Source: Henckelia pumila (lineage: Eukaryota > Streptophyta > Magnoliopsida > Lamiales > Gesneriaceae). From it: a stretch of 64,000 nt of DNA. The stretch covers positions 157,123,753-157,187,752 of the forward strand of contig NC_133123.1 of the NCBI RefSeq assembly GCF_033568475.1, read 5' to 3'. Shown here in pieces: positions 17,750 through 64,000 of the stretch. Position 1 is the stretch's first letter. Each line of letters opens with the position of its first letter. The notes under the pieces were generated by a model. It was not told where the DNA came from and did not search any database. It saw only the letters and a list, made by a program, of their open reading frames with translations. A program made the position numbers and the translations under genes.

Positions 17750-20700
17750 ATGGGAGAATACCAAGACATATGTCTAGCCGATAGTGGTACAACTCACACC
17801 ATCCTTCAAAGTAAAAGGTATTTTTTGAAAATAACATTAGCTGAAAATAATGTTATAACAATATCGGGTGCATCAAAAATTATTGAAGGTCATGGAAAGG
17901 CAAAAATCATTCTGCCAAATGAGACAATTCTATATATTAAAAATGCACTCTACGCTAGCAAATCCAGTAGAAATTTGCTTAGCTTTAAAGATATCCGCAT
18001 AAATGGATATCATATTGAAACATTAAATGTAAACAAGGTTGAATACCTTTGTATTACATCTATGATATGTGGTAAAAAAACATATAAAAGAAAAATTACG
18101 TGCACTCTCTTCTGGGATGTATTGCACAATAATAAAGGCAATTGAGACAAATACAGTCACAAACAAGAAGTTTGTTGACAAGAAAACTTTCATATTATGG
18201 CACGATCGACTTGGTCACCTTGGGAGTTCAATGATGCAAAGAATAATAGATAATTCGCGTGGACATCCCTTAAAAAATCAAAAGGTTCTCCTAAATGGTG
18301 ACTTTTCATGTATGGCTTGTTCACAAGGTAAACTAATTATAAGGCCTTCTCCAACAAAGATTGATGTTGAAATTCCAACATTCTTGGAAAGAATTCATGG
18401 GGATATTTGTGGGCCTATACACCCATCATGTGGTCCATTTCGATACTTTATGGTATTGATTGATGCATCAACTAGGTGGTCACATGTTAGTTTGCTTGCA
18501 ACTCGAAATATAGCTTTTGCAAAGCTACTTGGGCAAATGATTAAACTACGAGCTCAATTCTCTGACCACTCAATTAAGGCAATTCGCCTTGATAATGCTG
18601 CTGAATTTAAATCACAAGCATTTGATGACTTTTGTATGTCAATAGGGACTTCGGTCGAGCATTCAGTAGCCCATGTCCATACACAAAATGGTCTCGCAGA
18701 ATTCTTTATTAAGCGACTGCAATTAATTGCAAGACCGCTACTCATGAAAACAAAACTGCCATCTTCAGCCTGGGGTCATGCTATCATACACGCTGCATCG
18801 TTAATTCGTGTAAGACCAACTAATTACCACCAATATTCACCATTGCAACTTGCATATGGTCAAGAACCTGAAGTTTCTCACATTAGAGTATTTGGTTGTG
18901 CGGTACAAGTACCTATCCCACTTACACAACGAACCAAAATGGGTCTCCAACGTAGACTTGGAATTTATGTGGGGTATGAGTCACCGTCTATCATTAGATA
19001 TTTGGAACCCTTAAAAGGCGACTTGTTTAATGCAAGATTTGCAGATTGCCATTTTGATGAAACAAATTTTCCAACATTGGGTGGAAAAAAATTGTATCCT
19101 GAAGAACAATGAAAAATCTTTTGGAATGAGAAAACATTATCTCATTACGATCCCAGAAACAATCAATGTAAGCAAGAATTTGAAAGAATCATTCACTTGC
19201 AAAGAATTGCAAATCAATTATCTGATGCCTTTGTTAATACAAAAAATGTAACAAAGTCACACATACAAGTAGAAAATACCCTAGTGAAGATCGATGTCCC
19301 TGCAGGACCATATAATACTTTACCCGCAAATGAATCTAAAATACGCCAGAAGCGTGGCCGACCGATTGGTTCAAAGGATACAGTACCCAGAAAAAGAAAG
19401 GTACAAGAAAAACAAGGTTTGAAAACTCTAGAAGAAGAAACCTTACATCAAAATGAAACAGATGTGGATAACGTGATCCATGAAAAATCACAACCACATG
19501 AAAATATTGAGACTTCAACAAATTATTTGATATCTCGTAAAATATGGGATCGCAGAAATACGAACATCGATAATGTGTTCGCACTTAACATGGCTCTTGA
19601 TATCATGCAAGGTATTGATGATCCTGAACCACAATCTGTTAAAGATTGTCAACAAAGAAATGATTGGCCAAAATGGAAGGAAGCTATACAAGCTGAATTA
19701 GATTCTCTAGAAAAACGTAAAGTGTTTGGACCCGTAGTTCAAACACCCAAAAATGTAATCCCCATAGGACACAAATGGGTGTTTGTGCGAAAAAGAAATG
19801 AAAATGGCGAAATTGTAAGATACAAAGCCAGACTTATAGCCCAAGGTGTTTTTCAAAGACCTGGAATCGATTACGAGGAAACATATTCACCTGTGATGGA
19901 GACCACCACTTTTCGATTCTTGATTAGTTTGGTTGTATCAGAAAATTTGGATATGCGACTTATGGATGTGGTCACTGCATATTTATATGGTTCACTTGAT
20001 AGCGACATATACATGAAAATCCCTGAAGGATTTAAACCATCAGAATCAAGTGATACAAATCTCAAGACCATGTTCTCAATTAAATTGCAAAAATCGTTAT
20101 ATGGATTAAAACAATCTGGGCGAATGTGGTACAATCGCCTTAGCAAATATTTACTACAAGAAGGTTATACAAATAATGCTATTTGCCCATGCGTTTTTAC
20201 AAAAAAGACGGATGAGGGTTTTGCAATCGTGGCAGTATATGTAGATGATCTAAATCTTATAGGAACTCCCGAAGAGCTCACTAAAACTGCCAATTATTTA
20301 AAAAGTGAATTTGAGATGAAAGATTTGGGAAAAACAAAGTTTTGTCTCGGATTGCAAATCGAATATTTATCAGAAGGAATATTTGTTCATCAATCTTCAT
20401 ACACAGAGAAAATATTAAAACGCTTTTACATGGACAAATCACATCCATTAGCATCACCAATGGCCGTATGATCACTTGACACTAATAAAGATCCTTTTCG
20501 TCCACTTGAAGATGGAAAAAATATCATTGGTCCTGAAGTACCATATCTTAGTGCAATTGGTGCATTGTCATACCTTGCAAATTGTACTCGACCAGATATA
20601 GCATTTTCTGTCAACCTTCTAGCAAGATATAGTTCTTCTCCAACCCGAAGACATTGGAATTGTGTAAAACATATATTTCGTTACCTTCGTGGTACAACTG

Positions 20701-29699: not shown

Positions 29700-31219
29700 C
29701 ACCCCTCAAGGTTGGTGTAAGTTTCGAACACCAAGCTTGCCAAGTAAGAAGGAATGTTGTTGTTGCTCTTGGTGTAAATTTATGGGCTTTAGGAAGAGTG
29801 GTGGCATAGCATAGACAACCAAAAGTTTTGAGATGGCCATAGGTTGGGAGTTTATGAAACAGTAGTTCAAATGGAGTTTTGTTATCAAGAATGGGGCTGG
29901 AAGTACGCTTAATTAAATAAACAGAAGTGAGAACACAATCACCCCAATATTTAAGTGGAAGTGAAGCTTGAAAACACAATGATCGTGCAATGTTGAGAAT
30001 ATGTCGATGTTTTCGCTCAACTACCCCATTTTGTTGAGGTGTATAAGAACAAGAACTTTGGTAAATAACCCCAAGAGAAGAAAAGAAAACACTGCATCCA
30101 GTTTTAAAAAAATCTGCAGCGTTATCGGTGCGAACCACTTTGATTAACTGGGAAAATTGGGTCTGAATCATGATGAAAAATTTCCGAAAAATCCCCAGCA
30201 CATCCAATTTGGAATGTAACAAATAAACTCATGTTCCTCTAGAATAATCATCCACTATAGTTAAGAAATATCTTTCACCATTATAGGTAGGGGTATTGAA
30301 TGGACCCCAAATGTCTACATGTATTAGATCAAAAGGTGAAGCAGATTTAGACATGATGTGTTTAGGAAAACTCAAACGAGTTTGTTTGGATTGCGGACAA
30401 ATATAACAATGAGTTAACATTGGTTTAGTATTTAAAAAAGGAAGTAAGCTCATTCTAGATAGAGACATATGATCCAAACGTCGATGCCACACATCATCGC
30501 TAATAGAATTAGAACCAACTAAATCATGCTGCAAATTTAAAGTATAACAATGAACGACAGAAGAAGAAAATGAAGGTATTGAGATAGGCTTGACTTTCTG
30601 AAAAGATGCAACATCAAGATAATATAGACCACCTCGTTCTTTACCAATCCTCATTGTCTTCCCAGTCATGAGGTCCTGAAACAAACAAAAATGAGGGTGA
30701 AAGGTGACAGAACATCGAAAAGATTGAGTGAACTTTGACACAGACAACAAATTAAATTGAAAGTTTGAAACACAAAGAACATTAGAAAGGATCAGGTTGT
30801 CGAAAAGTGATACATCTCCTATCTTATCATTCCACCATTAGGTACTCTTACAGACCCATTGGAGTCACCTATAGATTTAAAATTTTGCAGCAATGAGTGA
30901 TCCCCTGTCATATGGGCATTTGCTCCAGTATCTATGATCCAATCCGCTACACCGTAACCAGAAACCATACCTGCCATATTGACCATTGGTTCACTCGGAG
31001 ATTGTACACCAGTTGTTCCCAACAACTTCAAGATCTCAGCGTACTGAGCTTGTGTAAATACTTGAGTCTTGCTTTCAGGTTGTGAACTTTATCAGCACTT
31101 CCTTCAACTGCATGAGCATCCGCGGTCACTTTATCTTGTGTGGAAAAGTTAATTCCTCGACGCCAGTAATCATTCTTATTCTGTTGTTTGTGATATTTGT
31201 GACCAGGAGGATATCCCAC
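29700..31219 (-). pseudogene. Copia PR-integrase remnant, no RT
   Basis: Minus-strand pieces in order: protease 'ADWIIDTGANAHMTGDHS' (about 30930), GAG_pre 'VWHRRLDHMSLSRM' and 'CYICPQSKQ' (about 30400-30510), and integrase 'VDIWGPFNTPTYNGERYF' with 'IVDDYSR'. A stop at 30229 interrupts the integrase, which resumes as 'VVRTDNAADF' and 'TPQQNGVVERKHRHILNIAR'. The Asp-Asp-Glu residues are still visible but split between frames. It ends in unrelated residues where pol was deleted. Confidence 0.85.
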
Positions 31220-45354: not shown

Positions 45355-45695
45355 ATATAGGGAAATTAAAACTGCAAATTTGATCTTGTATGTTTCTCAC
45401 TTTGCGATTTTGGTCCTCTATGTTTTCATATTTCAGTTTTAGTCCTGCATGTTCTGATTTTTGGCAATTTCGGTCCTTATGTTCGAAAATGCTTACGTGA
45501 CACTGTACACGTCAGCTCCACATCAGCATTGAATTAATGTCACGTCAGCATCACATCGAAAAAAAAGACTAAAATTGCCAAAAAAATAAAGATAGCGGAC
45601 TAAAACTAAAATTTAAAAATATAAATGACTGAAATCGCAAAATGACAAACATACAGGACCAAAAAAGTAATTTTCTCATATATATGATAAAATAT
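45355..45695. mobile_element. foldback / long-TIR MITE
   Basis: The left arm (from 'gggaaattaaaactgcaaat', with 'tttgcgattttggtcctc' and 'ttttggcaatttcggtcc') is complementary to the right arm ('ggaccaaaaaagtaattttc', 'gaaatcgcaaaatgac'), with about 120-bp imperfect arms around a short GC-richer centre ('acgtgacactgtacacgtca'). The palindromic architecture and lack of coding capacity fit a Mutator-type or foldback MITE. TA-rich flanks hide any target duplication. Confidence 0.7.
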
Positions 45696-48662: not shown

Positions 48663-48903
48663 CAGAAGACGATCTTACTGCAATAACCTATCTTCTTTAT
48701 ATTTTTAACATTTTTTTGTCGCAATATTGATACATTGAACATTATTCATGTGGCACTGAAAAACTTCAAATTATTAGAATATGATTAATTTTTGACAAAC
48801 TAAACGATGACAATTCGATATTAATGTCCAATCTCCGTAATGAATGTGCGTTTTTCATACAATTATATTTGATTTAAACATTCATATCAAATATTATAAA
48901 CAT
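48663..48903. other. short AT-rich spacer
   Basis: Nothing recognised between the MITE and the SIRE-type LTR. Confidence 0.4.
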
Positions 48904-50019
48904 TGATGTAAGGGATATCATGGTTCATAAAAATTATCAGAATCAGATGTTGTCACTAGGTGTTGATAACATCCTACACAACATGCAGCGAAAATATTAA
49001 AACGTGAATAGTAACAGCAAACCAACAATAAAAATACTCAAGAGTAAATATGCACAATTACTAAAGTAATAAAAAGTTGCACATACAAATATATTCAGAG
49101 GTTGTCACTAGGTGTTGACAATATCTTCAATAACACCTTGATTACCATGCATCAGAATTTTTGAAAGCATGAATAAAATAGATTAGCAACCAAACAAATC
49201 AGACTCAAATATTTAAGAAAGAGTATAAAATAGTCTTGCAGCGCCTCAGGGCAAAACTTTCACTAGAAAATAATCAAAGAGTTTTACAAACCCTAAAACT
49301 AGTGAATTATTGTAAAAATCAATTTTCTCAAAACATGTGAGAAAATAAAGAATAAAACAAATAAACCAACTCCTAAAAGTCTACTGAAGGTAGACAAGAA
49401 AATCAAGAGAATAGAGTTGGCCCTAAATGCCAAAACACGAGAGCAAAAAGGCTTTCAATCTTCGATCTTCAATCCTCAATCAACATGCTCTCAAACTCTT
49501 CACGGCATCTACGGAAAATAACTTCAACAAATAGACAAGGACTCTTCAACGTAAAAGCACTCCAGAAAGTCGACTTCCTTGTCTTCTACACTTAAGCTCT
49601 CTCGTCTCTCTCTTTTATTTTGTACGCTCAAATTCTCATCCCGGCTTGATCTATCTTTTCTGCACTCTTTCGTTTTTCTCCAAGCCACCTCAATCTCTAC
49701 ACCCTCTTCTTCTATTTAAGCATGTCAGCTTATCTCCAAAAAGACTTGATCATATTTCCTTTCAAACTTGAACCAATCTACAAAGATAAGGAAATAATAT
49801 TAAGTTAAGAGATAAAGATATATTATGATAAGTGCATAATATCTCCTACAAAATAATCAAGTGAATATTTAAGCTCTTTAAGATATATGAATATCTTATT
49901 CTATAATAAAACAATTCCTATTTAAAATATATAAGAAAAAGTATCAATCCAAGAAAGGCAAAACACCACAATAAATCTTTCACAATATAGAAAAGATATC
50001 AAGGATTTTATTCCTTTCA
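48904..50019 (-). repeat. 3' LTR of the SIRE-type element (left boundary uncertain)
   Basis: The LTR begins (minus strand) TGAAAGGAATAA directly after the polypurine tract, at 50019. The far end is not fixed by a partner LTR: candidates are near 48904 or 49078. The LTR holds two copies of the nested palindrome (48946, 49098). Confidence 0.55.
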
Positions 50020-50566
50020 ATCTCCCCCTTTTTGCCTTTCTGGACAAAACTTCTAAAAGAAAATTAGCAACTCCCCCTGAATATTAATTCTCAGAACTCC
50101 CACTGAGTTCAAACTTCTCAAATCAGTTCTCCCCCTGAATTTGATCTTTCAATTCTGAGTGTTGTCAAGAATGTTGGCAACACCTGCACACAACACTTGG
50201 CAAGATCAGAAAATACTTAATACATTTTCAGAAGTGAATCACAAAACACATTTAATCAATTCAGCACACATCACAACTCTCCTGAATATCAATTCTCTCC
50301 CTGAAGACGAAAATATATTCTCCCCCTTAGTCAAAGCTTGGATGTTGTCGAGGATGTTCCCAACATCTCCTCACAACACTTAAGTCAGAGCAGAAAAAAC
50401 TTAGAACAAATCAGAGAGTCATAATCAAACAAGCTAACAATTGATTAGAACCATATCAGAGCAAAAACATAAGACAAATAAGAGCAGAGCAAAATAAACT
50501 TAAACCACAAAAAAAATAAAACTTATTGATCTGTGACAATCCGTCATTTGCTTTGCCAGAACTAGA

Positions 50567-51061
50567 TTATTTTCCATCGGAGTCAGAGTCACTATGTTCT
50601 CCATCAGATTCAACATCTTCTCCCCCTTTTTGTCCAGAAGAGGTACCTACACCACGAAAATTTCGATATTGAGACATAAGAGCTTCATAGTAAGCAATGT
50701 CTGCTTTGGCTTGTAAAATCTTCTGTTCAACATGCAACATATGTATTGAATAAAGATAGAATCCAGCTGTTGAAGTAGGAGGAATAAATATGGCAGTGGC
50801 AGGGGAGGTGTTGGCAACATCTGCCACAACATCTGCAGCAGCACCTGTTTCTGACCAAGGTAGGTCCAATTTCATGTTACCTTTAAGTAATGCAGGTGCA
50901 AGCTTTAGGACCTCAACAACAACAGATAAAGGCTCATCATCATCCTTTTCAAAATATTGAGATACTAGCACAATAAATTTCAAAGAAGGATATAGGAGCA
51001 TGCAATATACCAACCCACAGTTTGCATATTGCATAACTGTAGTAAAACATAAGCTTTCCAA
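50567..51061 (-). CDS. SIRE-type 3' accessory open frame, 164 residues
   Basis: An open frame downstream of pol. It includes a helical segment ('LYSIHMLHVEQKILQAKADI', then 'AYYEALMSQYR') and a very acidic C terminus ending 'SDGEHSDSDSDGK'. SIRE/Maximus Copia elements carry variable extra frames here, some called env-like. I see no transmembrane anchor in this one, so I do not call it an envelope protein. It is probably the C-terminal part of a longer product whose upstream portion (51062-52350) is broken into short frames. Confidence 0.5.
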   Translation of the reverse strand: MESLCFTTVMQYANCGLVYCMLLYPSLKFIVLVSQYFEKDDDEPLSVVVEVLKLAPALLKGNMKLDLPWSETGAAADVVADVANTSPATAIFIPPTSTAGFYLYSIHMLHVEQKILQAKADIAYYEALMSQYRNFRGVGTSSGQKGGEDVESDGEHSDSDSDGK

Positions 51062-52859
51062 AGTTCAAAGCTGCTCCAGTTCCTATAGCAAATATCACAC
51101 CAGCTTGTTGTTTGGTGACAAACGTGGAATTTGTGGACGGAGTCCAAATCTTGATTGTAGTCTTGTAAAGAACATAAGCTATCTTATAAGAGCAGGCTGC
51201 ACATCAGATTTTGTGCGCCATATGCTTCCAAATCAATTATGTAGTCCTCAAAGAAGTCACAATTGGCATAGTGTTCCCAATCGTTTGCAACATTCTCAGA
51301 AAAAAAACAGAGGAATAGGATTGGCTTACTCGGTAGTTTTCATCTAAGGTGTTGTCCAGGGTGTCAGCAACACCTGCAAAAACATCTTATGCAGAAACAG
51401 TAACACCGGCTTCCTACAGAAAGGTGCAATAATAGTGACAATAGCCAAAAAATTCCGAATTTTGAAAAATTCTACCATATTCAAATACTCATCATCTAAG
51501 ATGTCAGCAGAAATGTCAACAGCATCTGATGCAACATCTGCTTCTGAGACAAATTCCTCAGAGTCTTCATCAGAGAATACAAGGGATGGATCAGCAGTAG
51601 TAAAAATGACCATCAATTATCTAAAAAAATCATCCTCTAAGATGTTGTCAGAGGTGTTGTCAACATCTGACTCAACATCTTCTTTGTAGCCCATCTCTGT
51701 TCAAATATCAGTGAATCAAAATTCTTCTCTGCCATAAAATTTTGAACAGTTAGAATATGAAGAGAAGAATTTGACAATAATGCAAGGACCGACAAAATTC
51801 TGTAGAAGTGATAATATGGTGAGGGTGAGCAAAGAGTAACAAGACCATAAAATATTCTGATGATAAGATCAAATCTAAACAACAAACCCTTCACCTCTTA
51901 ATCACTCGGTCGCAGTTAATGTTCCATAACAGTAATAATTGCCAACGTTAAAATGGAGTTTGAAATTATTATGGCAACAAATTTTCGAATTAAGGCAATA
52001 AATCAAGCCAAATGATTTTCACAAAATTTCCATAAAGAAACTCCACATCGAAATAAACTCCACTAAAAACACTTTCAATCACAAAACAATTCGAAATATT
52101 AGTGAATTGGGCAAATCATTAAATTTTGATTATTTCCAACTTCAAACTTTTCAGCAAGATATATTCACCATAAAATAAATATGCATGTCTTAATTATGTC
52201 TAAAAACAGAGTGTAACAATGCAATAAAATGCAATCACATGCAAAAATAATATGTTGACAAGTGAGGTGTTATCCACGATGTTGACAACATCTTCCAGCA
52301 ACACCTTAAGATTCTAAAAAATTTTATTACCAGACATCCATTAAATTCATTATTGTAGAAGTGGTAGCTTGCACACTAAAGGAACGGTCTTCATTGGACT
52401 CCTTTAGGTAGCTTTTTCCATTCTGATCTTCAATCAAATTTGATGATTGAGATGATTGCATTTTTACCATTTTTTATTTAGAGTTTCTGACTTTGCAAAA
52501 TCACTTTTCACTTGGGACAAGATCATGGAATACATGAACATCCCTCCACTACTTAGAAATTTTGTAAAATTACTTTTCACTTGGGACAAGATCATGGAAT
52601 ACACGAACATCCCTCCACTACTCAGTAATTTTGTCAGAACTCATTATCCATTAAGCTTCATTCGACTGTAAAAATAATTTTGCAGAGAATCCTGAGTGAA
52701 AACTGGTCAATGGTTACAAAGTATCCAACACATCACAAAACAGAATGAATGCATGAATGCAACATGCCTAATGATCCTAAAGATGCACATGCATGAAAAG
52801 GTGTTGTCGCAGGGTATTGGTAATACTCCAGACAACATCTCAGTTCTGTCTATAATGCA
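51062..52859 (-). pseudogene. broken accessory region of the SIRE-type element
   Basis: Short minus-strand frames (51344-51616, 51637-51894) include peptides made by the nested palindrome ('KKMLSQMLTTPLTTS'). At 52493-52640 a 69-bp unit ('cttttcacttgggacaagat') is tandemly duplicated. The region separates RNase H from the terminal accessory frame. No known domain is recognised. Confidence 0.45.
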
Positions 52860-53530
52860 CACAAACTGAGAGACTTCCTTAGACTGGAAAATCTCTCGAA
52901 ATTCAATGCTTTGGTGAAAATATCAGCTAATTGGTTATCCGTTCTAATAAACTCAATACAGATCATGCCTTTCTCGACCAAATCTCTAATGAAGTGATGT
53001 CAAATGTCTATGTGTTTGGTTCGAGAGTGTTGTACTGGATTTTTGCATATATCAATAAAGCTTGAATTATCACAGTACACATTCAACTAAGCATGATATC
53101 TAGCCTAGTAGCACAAAATACAAGATACTTCCAATTATGCTTCTGTAGAGGGTGTTGCAACACCTTCGACAACATCTTCCCTCGACAGTTTTTCACTTGA
53201 CCTCATGGTATACGCATGTGTTTACAATTTTCATTCAAATACTTTTTCACAAGATTTCTAGCATACTGTGTTTGACACACGAAAATTCCACCATGCATTT
53301 GTTTCACTTGCAACCCCAAGAAATAATTCAATTCACCAACCATACTCATCTCAAAAGCAGACGACATGCACTTCACAAATTCATCAACAAGTTTTTCACA
53401 AGAAGCACAAAAGATTATGTCATCCATATAAATTTGGCAAATAAGAATATTACCTTGATATTTTTGCACAAACAATGTCTTATCAATCTCACCTCTTTTG
53501 AATCCAAGATTGAGCAAGTATTTGGTTAAT
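52860..53530 (-). pseudogene. Copia RT-RNase H remnant
   Basis: The frame at 53517-53203 has the RT end: 'LNLGFKRGEIDKTLFV', 'YMDDIIF' (the catalytic YxDD box) and 'MVGELNYFLGLQV'. Further along, minus-strand frames read 'DNSSFIDICKNPVQHSRTKH' and '[14 protein letters not shown]' (52890-53080), the end of Copia RNase H. Most of the polymerase fingers and palm is missing, and frames are broken. Confidence 0.8.
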
Positions 53531-53758
53531 CTTCCATACTATACACGTGGTGCTTGCTACAATCCATACACTCCCAACCTTTTTGGTTCACTGTTTGACA
53601 CAAAGCATGAAAATCTTACCTGTGAAAACGTGGAGCTCATACAAATTAGTCCAGACATCTTTCGATAATCCACATTTTCTTTCCTTCAGGTTTGCATATC
53701 TCCATGCACATTTCCAATGACCTTACTGTCTTCATCCTCATTTTCAGCAGTGAATTGT

Positions 53759-54694
53759 TCAAAATTTTGTTTCTGGAGATTCTGTAGAAGGTGTTGTCAC
53801 AGGTGTTGTAACACCTTGGACAACATCTAAATTTTCATAATTTTCAAACATATCATAAACTTCATCTTCAACAGTTTTCTTCTTCAGATCTGCAAAGACA
53901 TCAAAAACAACATTAATAGACTCAAAAATTGTTCGAGTTCTTAAGTTAAACATCATGTAAGCTTGAATATCCAAAGAATAACCTAAGAACAAACACTTGT
54001 CACTTTTAGCATCAAACTTTGCAAAATGATCAAATATCATTCAAAACGTAACATACACAGCCAAAAACATGAAAGTACTTAAGGTTCGGCCTCTTTCCCA
54101 TGAGAGTTTCATAAGAAGTCATAGTAGAACCATTTCTAAAGTATACTCAATTTTACGTGTGACATGCTGTGTTTAAGGCTTCTGCCCAAAAACGTTTTGA
54201 GATATTTTCAGAACTTAACATCACTTTAGTCATCTATTGCAAAGTTATATTCTTTTTTTCAACAAATTCATTCTATCGTAGGGTTTTGGGAGCAAAAAAT
54301 TCATGATAAATACATTTTTTATCACATAAATTCTCAAAAGAAGAGTTTCGAACTCCTTACCATAATCAGTGAGAATTCTGGTTACCTTCAATTTGTGAAA
54401 ATTCACAATCCTTGTGAGCAAATTCTTAAAAACATCAAATACTGATTTTTCTCTCACAAAGCTTACTCAAGTATATAGTGAAAAATCATCTACACAAACA
54501 ACAGAATATTTCTTACCTCCACAGCTTTCCACATCCATTGAACCCATTGAGTCCATATATACAAGCTGAAGACAGAGTGTTGTCTCAGATGTTGGCAACA
54601 TCTGGTGTGACATCCTGGTCTGCTTCTTTTTGACATGCCTCACAAACAAATGAAATTCCAGATTTTGAATTAGACATACCTCTAACATCATCAA
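53759..54694 (-). pseudogene. SIRE-type integrase fragments
   Basis: 'MDSMGSMDVESCGGKKYSVV' with 'CVDDFSLYT' is the first Asp region of the integrase core. 'ILTDYGKEFE' holds the second Asp. 'KFDAKSDKCLFLGYSLDIQAY' is the Copia post-integrase segment. They lie in three frames separated by stops. The frame carrying the last ends with palindrome-encoded 'VVQGVTTPVTTPS'. Confidence 0.8.
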
Positions 54695-55934
54695 ACTTAC
54701 TTAAGTTCTTCAAAGACTTGAAGTTTTCATGTCCCAACTTTCGATGCCAAATGTTAAATTCATCCATCTTTGTATGCGTACAAGTAATCTCTTCTTCAAG
54801 TTGGTAGCGATTATCAGATGACCTCGTACCTGTCATAACACACATGTTAGAACTATAAAATTTTTTGCATAGTTTCTTATCAAACTTCACATGAAAGTTA
54901 TCATCACAAAGCTGGCTAATGCTTATTAAATTTGCAGTTAGTCCTTCAACATGTAGCACATTGCAAAGTTTAGGCAAACCAGCAACATCCAGTGTGCCTT
55001 TTCCTACGATATTTCCTTGTGAACCTCCTTCATAAGCCGCTTTCCCACTTTTCAATTTAACATAATCTGTGAGAAATTTTCTTGAACCTGTCATATGACG
55101 TGAACTTCCACTATCAAAGTACCAAGCACCTGAAACATTAGTTCTCAAAGCAGTATAAATCATATAACAGTTAATATCAGCTTTTGGTACCCAAACCTTT
55201 CTTTCAGTGGATTTGTTCTTAGGGATGTTGTGGGAGGGTGTTGGCAACACCTTAGATGCAGACCTCTCCGAATAATCTTCCTGCAGCTTAAAACAGTATG
55301 GTTTGATATGACCAGGTCTATGACAGTAATGACAAACATAGTTATGTTTCCTTCCAGACTTTACAAGAGCAGTAGGCTGTGACTTAGGTTTTGGAGGATC
55401 GGTAGTTGTGACCTTTTCTGTTAAGCTTCCTGGACAGCTATTTTCTTTGACAAACACAGGAGCTTTTGAACATTCACCAACCTCAAATTTACTGTTCTCA
55501 AAACCTAGTCCAGCCTTACCATCTCTTCCCATCATGAGTAAAGAATCAAGCTTGGTTGTTCTTGAGTTGAATTTAGTCAGTGTAGCCTTAGCTTTCATGA
55601 GTTCATCCTTAACCTGACTTAATTCTAGATCCTTCTTACTCAGCATAACTTCTAGTCTTGATATATCAGCCTTCAAATCAGAATTTTCTCTTGAAAGAAA
55701 AGTGTTCTTCTTATTTCGTTCAACCCAGTCAGCATATAACTCTTCATATTGCATTCGCACATCTTTCAGAGACATTCTTTCATCACCTGCATCAGAATTA
55801 TTCACATTATCAGCAGTAAAAGAATTGAAACATACTGACCTTTGGGAGATGTTGCGGCCAGGTGTGGCAACACCTGCGGCAATACCTAAAGGATTGACTT
55901 GCATCAGCTTCTTTCTTTCCATCAATGCTGTCAA
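54585..55934 (-). CDS. SIRE-type gag C-terminus and protease, 449 residues
   Basis: An open frame. A coiled coil ('YEELYADWVERNKKNTFLSR' onward) precedes a CCHC zinc knuckle 'CHYCHRPGHIKPYC', then the aspartic protease motif 'AWYFDSGSSRHMTG' and the GAG_pre zinc motif 'IWHRKLGHENFKSL' with 'CEACQK'. The N-terminal capsid part of gag is absent: the insertion of the Gypsy element at 55948 removed it to beyond the window. Two nested palindromes lie inside the frame (55222 and 55846) without breaking it, and a third forms its C-terminal end (54585-54615). Confidence 0.85.
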   Translation of the reverse strand: MTALMERKKLMQVNPLGIAAGVATPGRNISQRSVCFNSFTADNVNNSDAGDERMSLKDVRMQYEELYADWVERNKKNTFLSRENSDLKADISRLEVMLSKKDLELSQVKDELMKAKATLTKFNSRTTKLDSLLMMGRDGKAGLGFENSKFEVGECSKAPVFVKENSCPGSLTEKVTTTDPPKPKSQPTALVKSGRKHNYVCHYCHRPGHIKPYCFKLQEDYSERSASKVLPTPSHNIPKNKSTERKVWVPKADINCYMIYTALRTNVSGAWYFDSGSSRHMTGSRKFLTDYVKLKSGKAAYEGGSQGNIVGKGTLDVAGLPKLCNVLHVEGLTANLISISQLCDDNFHVKFDKKLCKKFYSSNMCVMTGTRSSDNRYQLEEEITCTHTKMDEFNIWHRKLGHENFKSLKNLSKFDDVRGMSNSKSGISFVCEACQKEADQDVTPDVANI

Positions 55935-55947
55935 GGATGTGTGGCTT

Positions 55948-57920
55948 TGTAACGCCCGAAATTATTTAATTTTGATCCGAGAATATTTAATTTGGGAATA
56001 TTTGGAGTTTTGATTTAAATTCTAATATTCTTAAATTATATAGGATTAAAATTGAATGAATTGAGAAATTGAGGGCTGAATTGCAATTATGGAAGTCTTG
56101 AGGGGCTAAAGTGCAAAATATTGAATTTTAATTGGATACTTGTTATTTTTAGAAGGATGCACGTGTGAGTTATGACATTCCCTCAGAAATTTCAGAGATA
56201 AGAACCGTGAGAACAGAGCAACCGATTTCCTTCTTCTTCCTTTGTGAATTTGATTTTCAAATTGCCGTATCTTTTGATCCGGTTATCCGATTTTGATTCC
56301 GAAAGATGTTCTGGAATCCTTGCAAGAAGACCTTCGATTTGATGTAAGTTTTTATGTCTTTCATAATGGTTTGGGATGTCGAAATTGACAGGGATCAGAT
56401 GTGATTATGAATTAATGTTGTTGAGCTTGTATTCTTTGTTCTATCGGATTCGGGTTGAAGAATGGATATTGATTATGTTCTTATGAATTCTCAGCAAGTA
56501 TTACAACGTTCCTATATTATATTCTGCTGGTTTTGAAGCTTATACAGCTGATATGAATGTTAGAATTGACTTAGTTGAGTTTGGGATCGCCGAATGATAC
56601 CGATATGCCGTCGAACTTTTGATTTGAAGTGTTTTGCTATCTTTTGCTCGAGCTGCTATTGAGCTGAGTATTAGTTGATATTTTCTTGGTTGTTATGCTA
56701 TGATTTCAGTTCATAAACAGGGCAAGTCAACTTGAGAATTCCGACTACGAAACCGATAGAAGAAAGAACAAGATTTTGACAAGCTAGAAGACATCTTAAA
56801 CATCTCATTTGAAGGGTAAAAGTGAACTATTATTCGATGGGGATTACAACTCGAGATGGTTTGTATCGAGTTCCCTAAATCACATACTTATTTGCTTAAT
56901 TGCTTTTATATGCTCTTCTATGATTCGGTGAATGAGTCTTTGATGTTAACGAATGCTTTTATGATGATATATGTTGCATTCATCTTGCAAGACTTATTTC
57001 TTGATTTTGAAATGAACGGAAACGTTCGAATAGACGATTTGAGGGATTATATATGTATGGCCTGGGTGGTTGACGTAGCCTAGCGTCTGAAGTGCATATA
57101 TAGTGGCTTAAAAGTCTATAGAAGTAGGATAAGTAGCCCCACCTCGATCGAGAGAGTTGGTGGTTAGCTATGATATCTTCTTCTCGGGATCCCAACCGAC
57201 GAAATGAGAGAGTTCTTGAATAAACCTTGTTTTGAAAACATGCATTGTTTTATTTTTATCATGAGCCTGATATATGTTGTATATGCATGTTTAGTTGCTT
57301 TTACTGGGAAATGTATTTCTCACCGGAGTTATCCGGCTATTGTTGTGTTGTATGTGTCATGGCAATAGGCGGGAGTGGAACCGGGCAAAAGCGAACTTGA
57401 AGAACAAGGGATGAGGAGAATAGAGTAATGATCCGGATTAGAAGTCAAGTTTGTTGTCAACTTTATGTTCAGAACAAGAGTGAATGTATGAACTTTTGGA
57501 GTTGAGTTATTGTCTAGAGTTTCTACTCTTTGGCTTTGTATTATAGCTTGAACTAATAGTGTAAACTCCAATTTGAGATATGTTTATGCTCTTGTTAATG
57601 ACTTCATCTACCTTGTCTATTACATGTTGGATGTTGTATGAGATTTCTTAGACTTGGTATAGATGATTGAGAATGTTTTCTAGGCTGAGAAAAGGGTGAG
57701 ATTTGCTGCAAATTTTTCTGCCCAGGACCGCGCCCGAGCTGCACCTCTGTTTTGAGTAAAACAAGGTGCGCTCGCGCGGCACTTTTTAGCCGCGCGAGCG
57801 CAGCTCATTTTTAAATTTTTTTTTATTTTCTTTCCCTTTTCTTTATAGCTTAATGATAGATTTAATTCATGTATTATGGATTAAATTTGAGATTGAGAGA
57901 TTAAGAATCGGGTCATCACA
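55948..57920 (+). repeat. 5' LTR of the chromovirus
   Basis: TGTAACGCCCGAAATTATTT ... GGGTCATCACA. It contains a perfect 14-bp GC-rich inverted repeat at 57767-57802. Confidence 0.93.
57767..57802. repeat. GC-rich hairpin in the chromovirus LTR
   Basis: TGCGCTCGCGCGGC at 57767-57780 and its exact complement at 57789-57802, with an 8-base loop 'actttttA'. It is strikingly GC-rich in an AT-rich LTR, near its 3' end. Confidence 0.9.
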
Positions 57921-58355
57921 ACAGGTGGTATCAGAGAGAAAAAAATTCTGGACTGAGTTAGATAGTGAGTGGGGTAGATCGAGTCATCTTTCTTGCTTAT
58001 TTATTTTATTATGCTACGATTATTTACATGATTGAATTACATGTTGTAAATCTAGCATGATTTACTTTCAAGTATTTTATTACAAGATGTTGTATTTATT
58101 TTATTTGAAAATATGATTATGATGATTAAAAATGCATGCTTACTGGAATATCGGAACCGATTAGAAGCATGTGTTTTGATGAATTATGATATGCTACCTG
58201 ATAATCTGAATTGATTGGAAGCATGTCTTGTTGAGTACTTTGATTATTCTTTTAAGATTGAATCAGAACCGAGTCTTGATCAGAGGTAAGATGATCAGAG
58301 GAGGACTGAGATAGATTTGATGATTATGGTATCCTAACCATTTTGATAATCAGAT
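57921..58355 (+). other. chromovirus primer site and leader
   Basis: tRNA-iMet primer-binding site at 57926-57936, then an untranslated leader up to the gag ATG at 58356, containing a duplicated phrase ('gattggaagcatgt' / 'gattagaagcatgt'). Confidence 0.75.
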
Positions 58356-59399
58356 ATGTCTCGACGACCAGGACGACCTTCTCTTAGATCACAGGTCCCT
58401 ACTCCTATGCCAGAACAGACAGTTCATACTCCACCGACAGTGGTAACACCGATTGTGCCTCAAGCTGCAATTTCGAGTAATGAACAAGAAAGTACTTTGA
58501 GAGACATGACAGATATGACTGCCACTCCGATGGAAACAGTGCTCAAACGTTTTCAATCATACCATCCGCCAACCCTGAAAGGTACCGAGAATGCAGTCGA
58601 ATGTGAAGGATGGCTTGATGATATGGAGATGTTATTTGATTCACTTGACTACGGTGATGAGCGGAGAGTCAGACTCATTGGACATCAGTTGCATGAGGTT
58701 GCGAAAAGCTGGTGGTTCACAACCAGGAAGTCTCTGGAGCATAGAGGGACTGTACTTACCTGGAATGTCTTCAAAACAGAGTTTTATCAACGCTTCTTTC
58801 CGGTGTCTTACCACAAAGATAAAAGTACAGAATTTGCTAACTTGAAGCAAGGGAACTTAAATATTGAAGAGTATGCAGCAAAGTTCTCTACCTTACTATG
58901 TTTTGCGCCACATGTAGCTGATAGTGACGAGGCAATGGCTGATCAGTTCATTAATGGACTGACCCAGAGGTATTTACATTAGTAAACACAAGGCGACCAA
59001 ATACTTTTGCGGAAGCATTGAACAATGCCAAGGGAGCGGAAGCAGGTTTGATAAAGCAGCGAGGAGCTTCGTATATCGCTCAGCCTCCGAGACAGCCTCA
59101 ATCCCCAGCTCCAAGTTCACAACCTTCTCGATTTGAAGGTGGTGGTAGCAGCAGTGGCAAGAAGGGATATTTGCAAGCACGAGGAAAGCAGTTTAAGAAG
59201 TCAGGGAGCAGTTCTTCGAGTTCCAGTGGTCCGAAACCGAAGCCTGGAGTGTTTTGTAACAGTTGTGGTGGAGGACATCCGACCGATCAGTGCCGAGGTG
59301 TATCTGGGAGGTGCCATATATGCCATCAGACTTACCATTTTGCGAGGGTATGAACTCAGAGAGGTTCTGGACAGTCAAGAGGTGCAGAGTCATCACGAT
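58356..59399 (+). pseudogene. chromovirus gag, frameshifted
   Basis: Starts 'MSRRPGRPSLRSQ'. The Retrotrans_gag capsid domain is visible ('VECEGWLDDMEMLFDSL', 'WWFTTRKSLEHRG', 'FFPVSYHKDKSTEFANLKQG', 'FINGLTQRY'). A one-base loss at about 58979 shifts the frame; it resumes as 'VNTRRPNTFAEALNNAKG'. The zinc knuckle 'CHICHQTYHFARV' lacks its last Cys because a TGA stands there (59351-59353). Confidence 0.88.
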
Positions 59400-59401
59400 C
59401 A

Positions 59402-62400
59402 GTGGCTCAACCTACCAGACAAGCCTTTTCTGTTCATTCCTTTCAACCAACACATCCACAGCCACAGACAAGGCCAGGAGGAAATCAGACAGGCAGTCAG
59501 CCTCAGAGACAGCAGGCTCATGTCTTTGCATTGACAGAGGAACAGGCACAGGGAGCACCAGATGACGTAATTGCAGGTAACTGTTCTCTTTCTGGTTATC
59601 CTGCATATGTATTGATAGATACAGGTACATCCCATACATTTATCTCTGCACGATTTGCTTCATTGCATTCTTTTCCTGTTGAAACATTACCTGTTGTAGT
59701 ATCTGTCTCTTCTCCTTTGGGAAAATGTCTTATATCTATTCAGACGGTTAAGAATTGTTTGTTACAGTATGACAGTAATGAGATTGAGATAGATTGTTTT
59801 GTGCTTGGTTTGTCTGATTTTGACTGCATTATCGGGATTGATATGCTAAACAAGTACAGAGCTACCGTAGACTGTTTCCAGAAGATAGTGAAATTCAGAC
59901 CTGAGATGGCTGGAGAATGGAAATTCTATGGTAAGGGTTCACGTGCTAAGATTCCTCTCATTTCTGTATTATCTATGACCCGACTTTTGCAGAAAGGAGT
60001 AGAGGAATTTATTGTATATGCAGTTGATATTCTGAAAACTAGCCCGAACCTGGCTGATTTGCCAGTGGTTAGTGAATTTGCAGATGTTTTTCCTGATGAG
60101 ATTCCGGGATTACCTCCGTATCGTGAAATTGATTGCAACATAGAACTGATGCCAGGAACTGCACCAATTTCGAAAGCACCTTATCGAATGGCACCAGTTG
60201 AATTGAAAGAGTTGAAAGAGTAGCTGGAAGATTTACTGGCCAAGGGATACATTCGACCTAGTGTTTCTCCTTGGAGAGCTCCAGTACTATTTGTCAGGAA
60301 GAAAGACGGTTCAATGAGATTGTGCATCGACTACCGGCAACTGAACAAGGCAACGGTAAAGAACAAATACCCTTTGCCTCGTATTGATGATTTATTTGAC
60401 CAGTTGCAGGGTTCATCTGTGTATTCCAAGATCGATATGAGATCTGGATACCATCAACTAAGAGTTAAGGATTCTGATATTCCGAAGACCGCTTTCAGAA
60501 CCAGGTATGACCACTATGAGTTTATAGTTATGCCGTTTGGTTTGACGAATGCTCCAGCTGTATTTATGGCTTTGATGAACCGTGTGTTTCAGAAATATCT
60601 CGATGACTTCGTGATTATTTTTATTGATGATATTCTGATATATTCGAAGAATTTAATTGATCATTCTGAGCATTTGAGAACAGTGTTGAAGACTTTAAGA
60701 GCTGAGAAACTGTATGCTAAACTGTCAAAATGTGAGTTTTGGCTGAAACAGATTGTCTTTCTTGGACATATTATATCGGGAGATGGTATTTCTGTTGATC
60801 CAAGTAAAATCGAGGCAGTGATCAATTGGTCGAGACCAACATCTGTTCCTGAGATACGTAGTTTCATGGGTTTGGCTGGATATTATCGTCGGTTTATTAA
60901 AGATTTTTCCAGTATTGCGAAGCCGATTACTCAGTTGACTCAGAAGAATACTCCTTTTGTCTGGTCTGATGCTTGTGAATCTAGTTTTCTTGAATTGAAG
61001 AAACGACTGACCAGCGCACCAGTCTTGACGATTTCTTCAGGTACTGGTGGTTTCACTGTTTATTGTGATGCATTCCATCGAGGTTTAGGATGTGTTTTGA
61101 TGCAGCGAGGGCATGTGATTACTTATGCCTCGAGACAGCTGAAGCCTCACAAGACCAGATACCCGATTCATGATCTTGAATTGGCCGCCATCGTATTTGC
61201 TTTGAATATTTGGCGACATTATCTTTATGGGGAACAGTTTGAAATCTATTCTGATCACAAGAGTCTGAAATATTTGTTTTCACTGTCAGAATTGAACATG
61301 AGACAGCGGAGATGACTTGATTTGCTCAAAGATTTTGATTGTGAGATTAAGTACTATCCGAGGAAATCGAATGTAGTAGCGGATGCATTGAGTCGAAAGG
61401 TATGTTCCTTGTCCTTATCGACGATTGGTGTATCAAATTTAATTGAAAACTGTTGTCTATCTGGATTAGTATTTGATACGAATTATCAGCCTCTTCGACT
61501 TTATCAAATTCAAGTTGAACCAGCATTATTGTTGCGAATTATAGATGCTCAGAAACATGATCAGAATGTGCAGAATTCGATCGAGAAAGTCTGATTCGGA
61601 CATGTGTCTGAATACCAGGTTTGAGATGATCTTTTATATATTAACAATCGCCTTGTAGTGCCTGATATTTCTGATGTGCGACAACAACTTTTGAAAGAGG
61701 CGCATTGTAGCCGTTATAACATTCATCGTGGTGGTAGTAAGATGTACAATCATCTGAAGGCTCATTATTGGTGGAAACAAATGAAGGCAGATATCACTAA
61801 TTTTGTGTCTCGATGTCTTAATTGCCAACAGGTGAAAGCTGAAAGGAAGAAACCGTCTGGTTTGTTACAGAGTTTGTCCGTGCCTGAATGGAAATGGGAT
61901 CATATTTTCATGGACTTCGTGACGAAGTTACCTCGATCTTCTAGAGGTTGCGATGCTATCTAGGTGATTATCGATAGATTGACGAAATCAGCGTGTTTTA
62001 TTCCTTATCGCATGACATATAGACACGACCAGATGGCAGAGATTTATGTCCGAGAAGTGGTCAGATTGCATGGAGTGCCGAAATCTATTGTATCAGATCG
62101 TGATCCTCGATTTACATCACACTTTTGGCACAGTTTACAGAGTGCTTTGGGTACTCAGCTACACTTGAGCATAGCATATCATCCACAGACTGACGGACAG
62201 TCTAAACGTACCATTCAGACATTGGAGGACATGTTGAGAGCTGTAGTGCTTGATTTTGGCACTAGTTGGCAAGAATCACTATCATTTTGTGAATTCTCGT
62301 ACAACAACAGCTATCAATCGAGTATTGAAATGGCTCCTTTTGAAGCTTTATATGGAAGGAAGTGTCGATCTCCTCTGTACTGGGATGATATCACTGAAGT

Positions 62401-63058
62401 ACCTGACACTGGACCTGATATGATTCGTGATATGACGGAACAAGTGAAGCTTATTCAGAAAAGAATGAAGACAACTCAGGATAGACAAGTGAAGTATGCC
62501 AATGTTCGACGTCGACCTTTGTCTTTTGAACAGGGGGATATGGTGTTTCTGAAGATTTCACCGTTCAGAGGCACTGTACGATTTGGCAAGAGAGGGAAGT
62601 TGTCTCCACGATACATTGGTCCTTATGAAGTTCTTGAGAAAATAGGCAATCTCGCCTATCGATTAGCTCTTCCTCCATCCTTATCTGGTATACATGATGT
62701 CTTTCATGTATCGATGCTTCGAAAATACCTCGCTGATGAATCTCATGTGCTTCAATCTGATGAGGCTGAACTCGATGAAACTTTGAGTTATTTTGAAAAG
62801 CCAATTCAGATCCTTGATCGTAAGGAGAAGCAACTTCGAACGAAGACTATTCTGCTTGTGAAGGTTCAGTGGAGTCGTCGTGGTATTGAAGAAGCAACGT
62901 GGGAAACAGAATCAGACATGAGACAGCGATTTCCAGAGATATTTCAATTATGTGAGTCTCCTTTAGTTTTCTGTTATCTTATATACATGTTATATGATCT
63001 GTTGATACTACTTGAGATTTCGAGAACGAAATCGTGTCTTAGTGGGGGAAAATTGTAA
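59402..63058 (+). pseudogene. chromovirus pol (PR-RT-RH-IN-chromodomain) with stops
   Basis: One frame runs throughout. The protease motif 'VLIDTGTSHTFI' is near 59620. RT has '[11 protein letters not shown]', 'MPFGLTNAP' and the catalytic 'FIDDILIYS' near 60625. RNase H follows ('[11 protein letters not shown]', 'ELAAIVFAL'). Integrase has a zinc segment ending 'CLNCQQVK', a core with 'VSDRDPRF' and 'YHPQTDGQSKR', and the GPY/F motif 'GPYEVLEK'. A chromodomain-like tail ('ILDRKEKQLR', 'VKVQWSRRGIEEATWE') follows. Stops at 60221-60223 (TAG), 61313-61315, 61592-61594 and 61622-61624 (TGA) and 61961-61963 (TAG) inactivate it. All can be explained as C-to-T or G-to-A transitions. Confidence 0.93.
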
Positions 63059-64000
63059 CGCCCGAAATTATTTAATTTTGATCCGAGAATATTTAATTTG
63101 AGAATATTTGGAGTTTTGATTTAAATTCTAATATTCTTAAATTATTTAGGATTAAAATTGAATGAATTGAGAAATTGAGGGCTGAATTGCAATTATGGAA
63201 GTCTTGAGGGGCTAAAGTGCAAAATCTTGAATTTTAATTGGATACTTGTTATTTTTAGAAGGATGCACGTGTGAGTTATGTCATTCCCTCAGAAATTTCA
63301 GAGATAAGAACCGTGAGAACAGAGCAACCGATTTCCTTCTTCTTCCTTTGTGAATTTGATTTTCAAATTGCCGTATCTTTTGATCCGGTTATCCGATTTT
63401 GATTCCGAAAGATGTTCTGGAATCCTTGCAAGAAGACCTTCGATTTGATGTAAGTTTTATGTCTTTCATAATGGTTTGGGATGTCGAAATTGACAGAGAT
63501 CAGATGTGATTATAAATTGATGTTGTTGAGCTTGTATTCTTTGTTCTATCGGATTCGGGTTGAAGAATGGATATTGATTATGTTCTTATGAATTCTCAGC
63601 AAGTATTACAACGTTCCTATATTATATTCTGCTGGATTTGAAGCTTATACAGCTGATATGAATGTTAGAATTGATTTAGTTGAGTTCGGGATCGCCGAAT
63701 GATATCGATATGCCGTCGAAATTTTGATTTGAAGTGTTTTACTATCTTTTGCTCGAGTTGCTATTGAGCTGAGTATTAGTTGATATTTTCTTGGTTGTTA
63801 TGCTATGATTTCAGTTTATAAACAGGGCAAGTCAACTTGAGAATTCCGACTACGAAACCGATAGAAGAAAGAACAAGATTTTGACAAGCTAGAAGACATC
63901 TTAAACATCTCATTTGAAAGGTAAAAGTGAACTATTATTCGATGGGGATTACAACTCGAGATGGTTTGTATCGAGTTCCCTAAATTACATACTTATTTGC
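63054..64000 (+). repeat. 3' LTR of the chromovirus, truncated by the window end
   Basis: First 947 bp of a direct copy of 55948 onward. The differences seen are scattered single bases (for example 'atttgggaa' versus 'atttgagaa'). Confidence 0.95.

Follow-up and report, generated by a model that had tools for sequence, protein, structure and literature searches.

Results

A nested palindrome recurs along a Sirevirus copy

The 64,000-nucleotide stretch of the Henckelia pumila genome analysed here (contig NC_133123.1, positions 157,123,753 to 157,187,752; the window) contains a Sirevirus (Copia) retroelement copy with decayed open frames, along which a nested dyad of about 40 bp is repeated from the long terminal repeat (LTR) through the linker to gag (Table 1). 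Each site consists of four half-sites in the order F-F-R-R, F being RGRTGTTG (8 bp) and R its counterpart CAACAYCT. Scoring over the 32 half-site positions gave 15 sites with at least 26 matches in the 7.04-kb element, located between 48944 and 55890, whereas 500 dinucleotide shuffles gave no such site and a best score of 25. An earlier note on this DNA, which had described some 15 nested palindromes in a SIRE-type element, was thus confirmed in its central observation, with slightly shifted limits (it gave 48946..55945) and a corrected word: the half-site does have eight letters as claimed, the printed RGTGTTG only seven. The forward-forward-reverse-reverse order also holds overall, failing at the fourth arm of sites 5 and 11 and the first arm of sites 13 and 14, with site 7 being weak. 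When other half-site orders were scanned with the same geometry, 0-1 positions were detected in the element compared to 27 for F-F-R-R, and 0-26 compared to 376 across 20 copies. In 247 instances from copies and relatives, picked by motif score in a scan that permitted just these spacing values, F-F spacing was 12 (188 instances) or 13 (59), F-R spacing 9 (200), 8 (39) or 10 (8), and R-R spacing 12 (132) or 13 (115).

The nested arrangement was not found outside the element: the 55.8 kb of the window that remain when 48801-57000 is set aside have no site of at least 24, and four random genome stretches of 10 kb each (40 kb) have none of at least 23. The suggestion that the word itself occurs nowhere else in the window had to be given up for single half-sites, as 47 of the 91 RRTGTTG/CAACAYY words lie outside the element; the 44 inside compare with a mean of 7.1 and a maximum of 16 in 300 region shuffles. 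An exact 17-bp core, AGRTGTTGNCAACAYCT, which is its own reverse complement, was found at 2006 places in the 884.66-Mb genome and its reversed, uncomplemented control at none. Ten core places, a small sample relative to 2006 and taken from the first 15 distinct places listed, all matched the element family by blastn with 65-89% identity, in agreement with the proposed link of this unusual feature to one retroelement family. Chance or base composition as the source of the motif is ruled out by the shuffles and the reversed-pattern control. Rfam gave no family at the gathering score, one match of 16.7 of 40 bits at 53394-53457 being away from the motif sites; no paper on the motif was found in listings of the open-access literature, and a search of viral contigs returned none.

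Table 1. Motif sites and features of the Sirevirus copy in the window (PPT, polypurine tract; RT, reverse transcriptase; ORF, open reading frame; PBS, primer-binding site)
Feature	Position	Strand	Remarks
Sirevirus (Copia) element copy carrying the motif	cut off at 55945	-	7.04 kb
3' LTR (TG...CA, 1113 bp)	48907..50019	-	end ..CCCTTACA matches pre-PBS sequence of fetched copies; AT/TG junction after PPT
Terminal PPT AGGGGGAG	50022..50029	-	read directly in sequence
Further AGGGGGAG octamers in linker	50071, 50129, 50320, 50620		read directly
Linker open frame, 165 aa	50567..51064	-	open-frame listing
RT piece (RVT_2)	53203..53538	-	Pfam match
SH3-like piece (SH3_retrovirus)	53759..54040	-	Pfam match
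gag/pre-integrase open frame, 458 aa	54585..55961	-	Pfam matches Pol_BBD, gag_pre-integrs
Site 1	48944..48986		close to LTR end
Site 2	49096..49138		LTR
Site 3	50156..50199		linker, between PPT copies
Site 4	50339..50383		linker
Site 5	50794..50836		F-F-R, no good fourth arm; in 165-aa linker frame, DVVADVANTS
Site 6	51346..51390		linker ORF region
Site 7	51499..51541		linker ORF region; weakest
Site 8	51639..51682		linker ORF region; 32/32
Site 9	52265..52308		linker
Site 10	52797..52843		past end of pol-like sequence (by eye)
Site 11	53138..53180		between RT and RNase H, at TLYRS; no good fourth arm
Site 12	53788..53830		linker separating SH3-like domain from RT
Site 13	54574..54618		end of gag_pre-integrase region, at HP(V/M)LxxxxTT; weak first arm
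Site 14	55221..55264		after gag zinc knuckle; first arm lost in window copy
Site 15	55846..55890		gag

Half-sites change more slowly than their surroundings

Sites with a score of at least 25 number 13-17 in 11 of the 20 fetched stretches and 4-11 in the other nine; some elements are broken or extend beyond the stretch. Two sites per LTR were detected in stretches with both LTR ends, and in four 5' LTRs they lie 892-1051 and 1044-1203 bases from the LTR start. Site-by-site alignment placed the motif at the same position in the copies with a spanning alignment. Between copies, half-sites showed a divergence of 0.052 compared to 0.081 for the flanks, with lower values at 15 of 15 sites, and spacers a divergence of 0.089, the half-sites being below them at 13 of 15. 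With bases matched and CG/CNG columns taken out, the values were 0.042 and 0.077 for half-sites and flanks, and the half-sites were lower at all but sites 3 and 13 (13 of 15). Both comparisons excluded partial alignments and those below 150 columns and counted related copies as independent. Similarly, ten further loci gave 60/621 for half-sites and 589/3281 for flanks, with half-sites lower at 19 of 20 sites and spacers at 28/178, and the ten sites not involved in picking these loci summed to 27/311 versus 295/1635. The array, the family match at every sampled place, the homologous positions and the half-sites slower than their flanks are direct observations, and the slow change of the motif relative to what surrounds it suggests that it is read.

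Peptides encoded by the motif and occurrence in other species

In relatives, where sites 5-8 lie in or adjoining linker frames, the motif peptides fall into the frame classes VLPxVLxNTxxNT, GVxxGVATPGRNT and DVxxDVATPxTT. The claim of in-frame copies with similar peptides is partly right, the window copy itself being decayed. A codon-compatible motif (26 or more of 28) was detected at 182 places in 102 Gesneriaceae proteins, a count that omits P0205, a Henckelia protein scoring 27, at none in their shuffles, and at six places in 127 other proteins. Motif sites are present at corresponding positions in Primulina, as judged from peptides and best-case codon compatibility. Three of the six matches in the other proteins are in P0062 and P0063, which look like members of the Sirevirus lineage described here, and the remaining three adjoin the gag zinc knuckle in P0103 (Trifolium pratense), P0084 and P0102. 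Before the zinc knuckle, gag peptides of the types MSKxMxQHPKxHQ, MLRKTLQHPKQHH and QHLMQHS occur in P0097, P0103 and P0120 (Trifolium) as well as in P0084, P0093, P0102, P0105 and P0198, and five of these eight proteins reach at least 25/28 in the codon-compatibility scan. Judging from these protein sequences, this class of motif may predate the Gesneriaceae.

The host element and its window

Assignment to the Sireviruses follows from three features: the PPT octamer AGGGGGAG with AT/TG at the LTR junction (50018-50029 in the window, and in several fetched copies too), further PPT octamers in the linker (four extra in the window copy, one to five in 12 of 20 fetched stretches and none in the other eight, which are either broken or without coverage of the linker), and the PBS TATCAGAGC after the 5' LTR, exact in 13 of 20 fetched stretches and lying in a part that the window copy does not have. 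Of the polyC-rich integrase signal near the LTR end, just ATATCCCTTACA is present in the LTRs inspected. The best protein matches of the window element are from Primulina and Henckelia. For the 165-aa linker frame, a Pfam search gave no match and a protein search no homologue; an overlapping frame at 50949-51203 matches Transposase_32 weakly, below the cut-off, and a corresponding linker frame of relatives lies near this family, scoring 44.6 bits (cut-off 45) in L037. In L009-L028 site 15 follows the PBS by about 0.5 kb, compared to some 300 residues before site 15 in the Primulina protein P0001, and the family of the window element may lack the N-terminal part of gag.

At 55945 the Sirevirus is interrupted by another LTR element (55947-64000), which we guess to be of Gypsy type, with LTRs at 55947-56895 and 63053-64000 that are 98% identical, the second running to the window end. 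The Sirevirus linker contains a 69-bp tandem duplication (52492-52629, 93% identical). Elsewhere in the window we observed an imperfect palindrome of about 285 bp at 45379-45663, 72% identical to its own reverse complement, and tblastn matches to Copia proteins at 18000-20700 (plus strand) and 30000-31200 (minus strand), neither of which holds a motif site.

Discussion

Recognition as DNA or as RNA

The best explanation we can offer, and a tentative one, is that the motif is a cis-acting recognition array of about 15 four-half-site sites distributed over the length of the element in a Gesneriaceae Sirevirus lineage, kept by selection on the nucleotides and read as double-stranded DNA. The next explanation in order, which we consider unlikely, is that of RNA hairpins which, comparable to the dispersed packaging signals of RNA viruses, are scattered over the element transcript and act in packaging, dimerisation, export or the control of translation. 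A structured RNA signal had also been considered in the earlier note and is possible. In its favour, the sense-strand sites fold better than mononucleotide shuffles (z -0.5 to -5.3 for the 15 sites); the distribution of sites from the LTR end through the genes into the linker, with none in the first LTR part, would likewise be consistent with it. However, such folding is expected of any palindrome, and the summed folding energy is better for the antisense strand (-217 versus -184.5 kcal/mol). Moreover, a permutation test of the window copy gave no sign that the arms covary (P 0.16 for the inner and 0.65 for the outer ones), and a seemingly compensatory pair at site 10 turned out to be private to this copy. 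Sense-strand counts at the inner degenerate pair in the 247 instances were G-C 99, A.C 73, A-T 61 and G.U 8, and this excess of A.C over G.U speaks against wobble-based pairing of the sense strand. At sites 5 and 11, where the first arm has no good partner, AGATGTTG persists without change in 9 of 12 and 14 of 16 rows, respectively, and three F arms were found at the place of site 5 in L040. At site 14, 21 of 30 loci were caught by the search expression, reading CCA ACA CC in 17, CTA ACA CC in one and CAY AAY ACC in three (L033, L036, L038) at equal length; less firmly supported by these sequences is that the half-site appears to have been retained across a one-base shift of the reading frame.

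Therefore, from the frame-shifted half-site, the lack of clear covariation, the preference of A.C over G.U at the inner pair, the persistence of partnerless arms and the more stable antisense hairpins, recognition of double-stranded DNA is preferred. Several observations weigh against this explanation. No site was found in the first part of the four LTRs measured, the expected place of a transcription factor array, and there is one mismatch in each of the three frame-shifted half-sites at site 14. For the outer degenerate pair (G.U 74, A.C 57, G-C 49, A-T 48 in the 247 instances) G.U exceeds A.C, a result that may also be judged neutral, and at the inner pair G-C and A-T look commoner than under independence, in counts that repeat related copies. 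Removal of CG/CNG columns left the half-sites below the spacers at just 9 of 15 sites, and the sites of the further loci and of the pair counts were required to score at least 25, a bias towards conservation.

Recognition would involve a candidate protein that binds the motif as double-stranded DNA, probably as a dimer or tetramer on the dyad-symmetric half-sites. At the level of a guess, such a reader could be a protein borne by the element or a host factor that is exploited by it, and could mark the element over its whole length, perhaps to counter silencing in the manner of VANC in the VANDAL elements, which are DNA transposons. RAV factors (CAACA/CACCTG) would be one possible lead as to the reader. 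In its boldest form, which we hold to be doubtful, the whole element, protein genes included, would serve as an array of operators, some 50-60 half-sites in all, recognised by a dedicated sequence-specific DNA-binding protein; the retroelement would have its own version of VANC anti-silencing, and its coding sequence would have been moulded to accommodate the operators.

Origin of the sites

It is improbable that the array is a passive by-product of reverse transcription, in which 12-nt half-site units were multiplied by slippage or template switching and homogenised without having a function. At sites 14 and 15 such units are indeed missing or extra among copies (F-R-R, F-F-R-R, F-F-F-R-R). 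However, slippage yields direct repeats and not dyads at 15 separate places, and orthologous sites retain site-specific spacers and flanks while their half-sites evolve more slowly than the flanks.

Still less likely is a miniature palindromic mobile insertion that multiplied within the element, as the earlier note had suggested and for which no support was obtained where sites were examined. The site 14 linker is longer than in Trifolium relatives, and an insertion may be the origin there, but sites 11 and 13 have the same length as in relatives that lack the motif: at site 11, 15 residues were counted in 21 of 22 Gesneriaceae sequences and in 25 of 25 other regex matches, and at site 13 nine residues in six of seven (the seventh looks off-target) and in 36 of 36. 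Therefore, the motif arose by substitution at these two sites. Furthermore, no clean empty site was seen among the site-spanning alignments, a result confined to copies with such an alignment and obtained with no separate search for target duplications.

That conserved peptide signatures merely happen to encode the palindrome is scarcely credible and, despite frame-compatible peptides in relatives at nine sites (5-8, 11-15) and HP(V/M)LQH-like peptides at site 13 in other Sireviruses as well, peptide-level constraint is unlikely because the LTR and the parts of the linker beyond these frames also have sites and because the half-site of site 14 is read in two frames. The earlier note's refuting case of unrelated coding signatures was not borne out.

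If the array is indeed read as proposed, the coding sequence of a retrotransposon would bear a second, sequence-specific constraint spread along its length, and the repeated motifs of Sireviruses would extend from LTR and linker into the genes. The exact 17-bp core, with its clean separation from the control, provides a handle for seeking a reader protein, methylation and small RNAs.

Comparison with known systems

The closest described feature is the repeated motifs (RM) of Sireviruses. For 13 elements the 2010 paper reports 8-32 palindromic copies each, which occur in LTR and linker and have an element-specific sequence; they are mostly in the upper LTR half and before ENV, 12 of the 13 have a CGG-CCG core, and their function is left to experiment (PMC2829016). 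The present motif resembles them in the abundance of palindromic copies within a single Sirevirus (the window copy has 15, RM requiring at least eight), but differs in being a 40-bp dyad of four half-sites, in the position of its LTR sites near the LTR end, and in its sites inside gag-pol and the linker ORF. RM-type palindromes with a CGG-CCG core were not found in the upper half of three LTRs, which have 1 CGG and 3-4 CCG each and no repeated arm. With the packaging signals of RNA viruses, described as dispersed in many copies along the genome and recognised as RNA (PMC6281560), the array shares its dispersal and not the pairing of arms, which is unsupported here.

The VANC target of Arabidopsis VANDAL elements is described as a short, dense motif of 9 bp in a single orientation, nearly restricted to one family of transposable elements and chiefly in non-coding regions, whose repeat units are gained and lost and to which an element-encoded protein binds and removes silencing (PMC5735166). 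Our motif is likewise short, dense, near-confined to one such family and variable in its repeat units, but consists of four-half-site dyads in a retroelement, coding regions included, with a reader protein that is putative. By this analogy, the VANC system would be the closest in its way of working, though not in membership.

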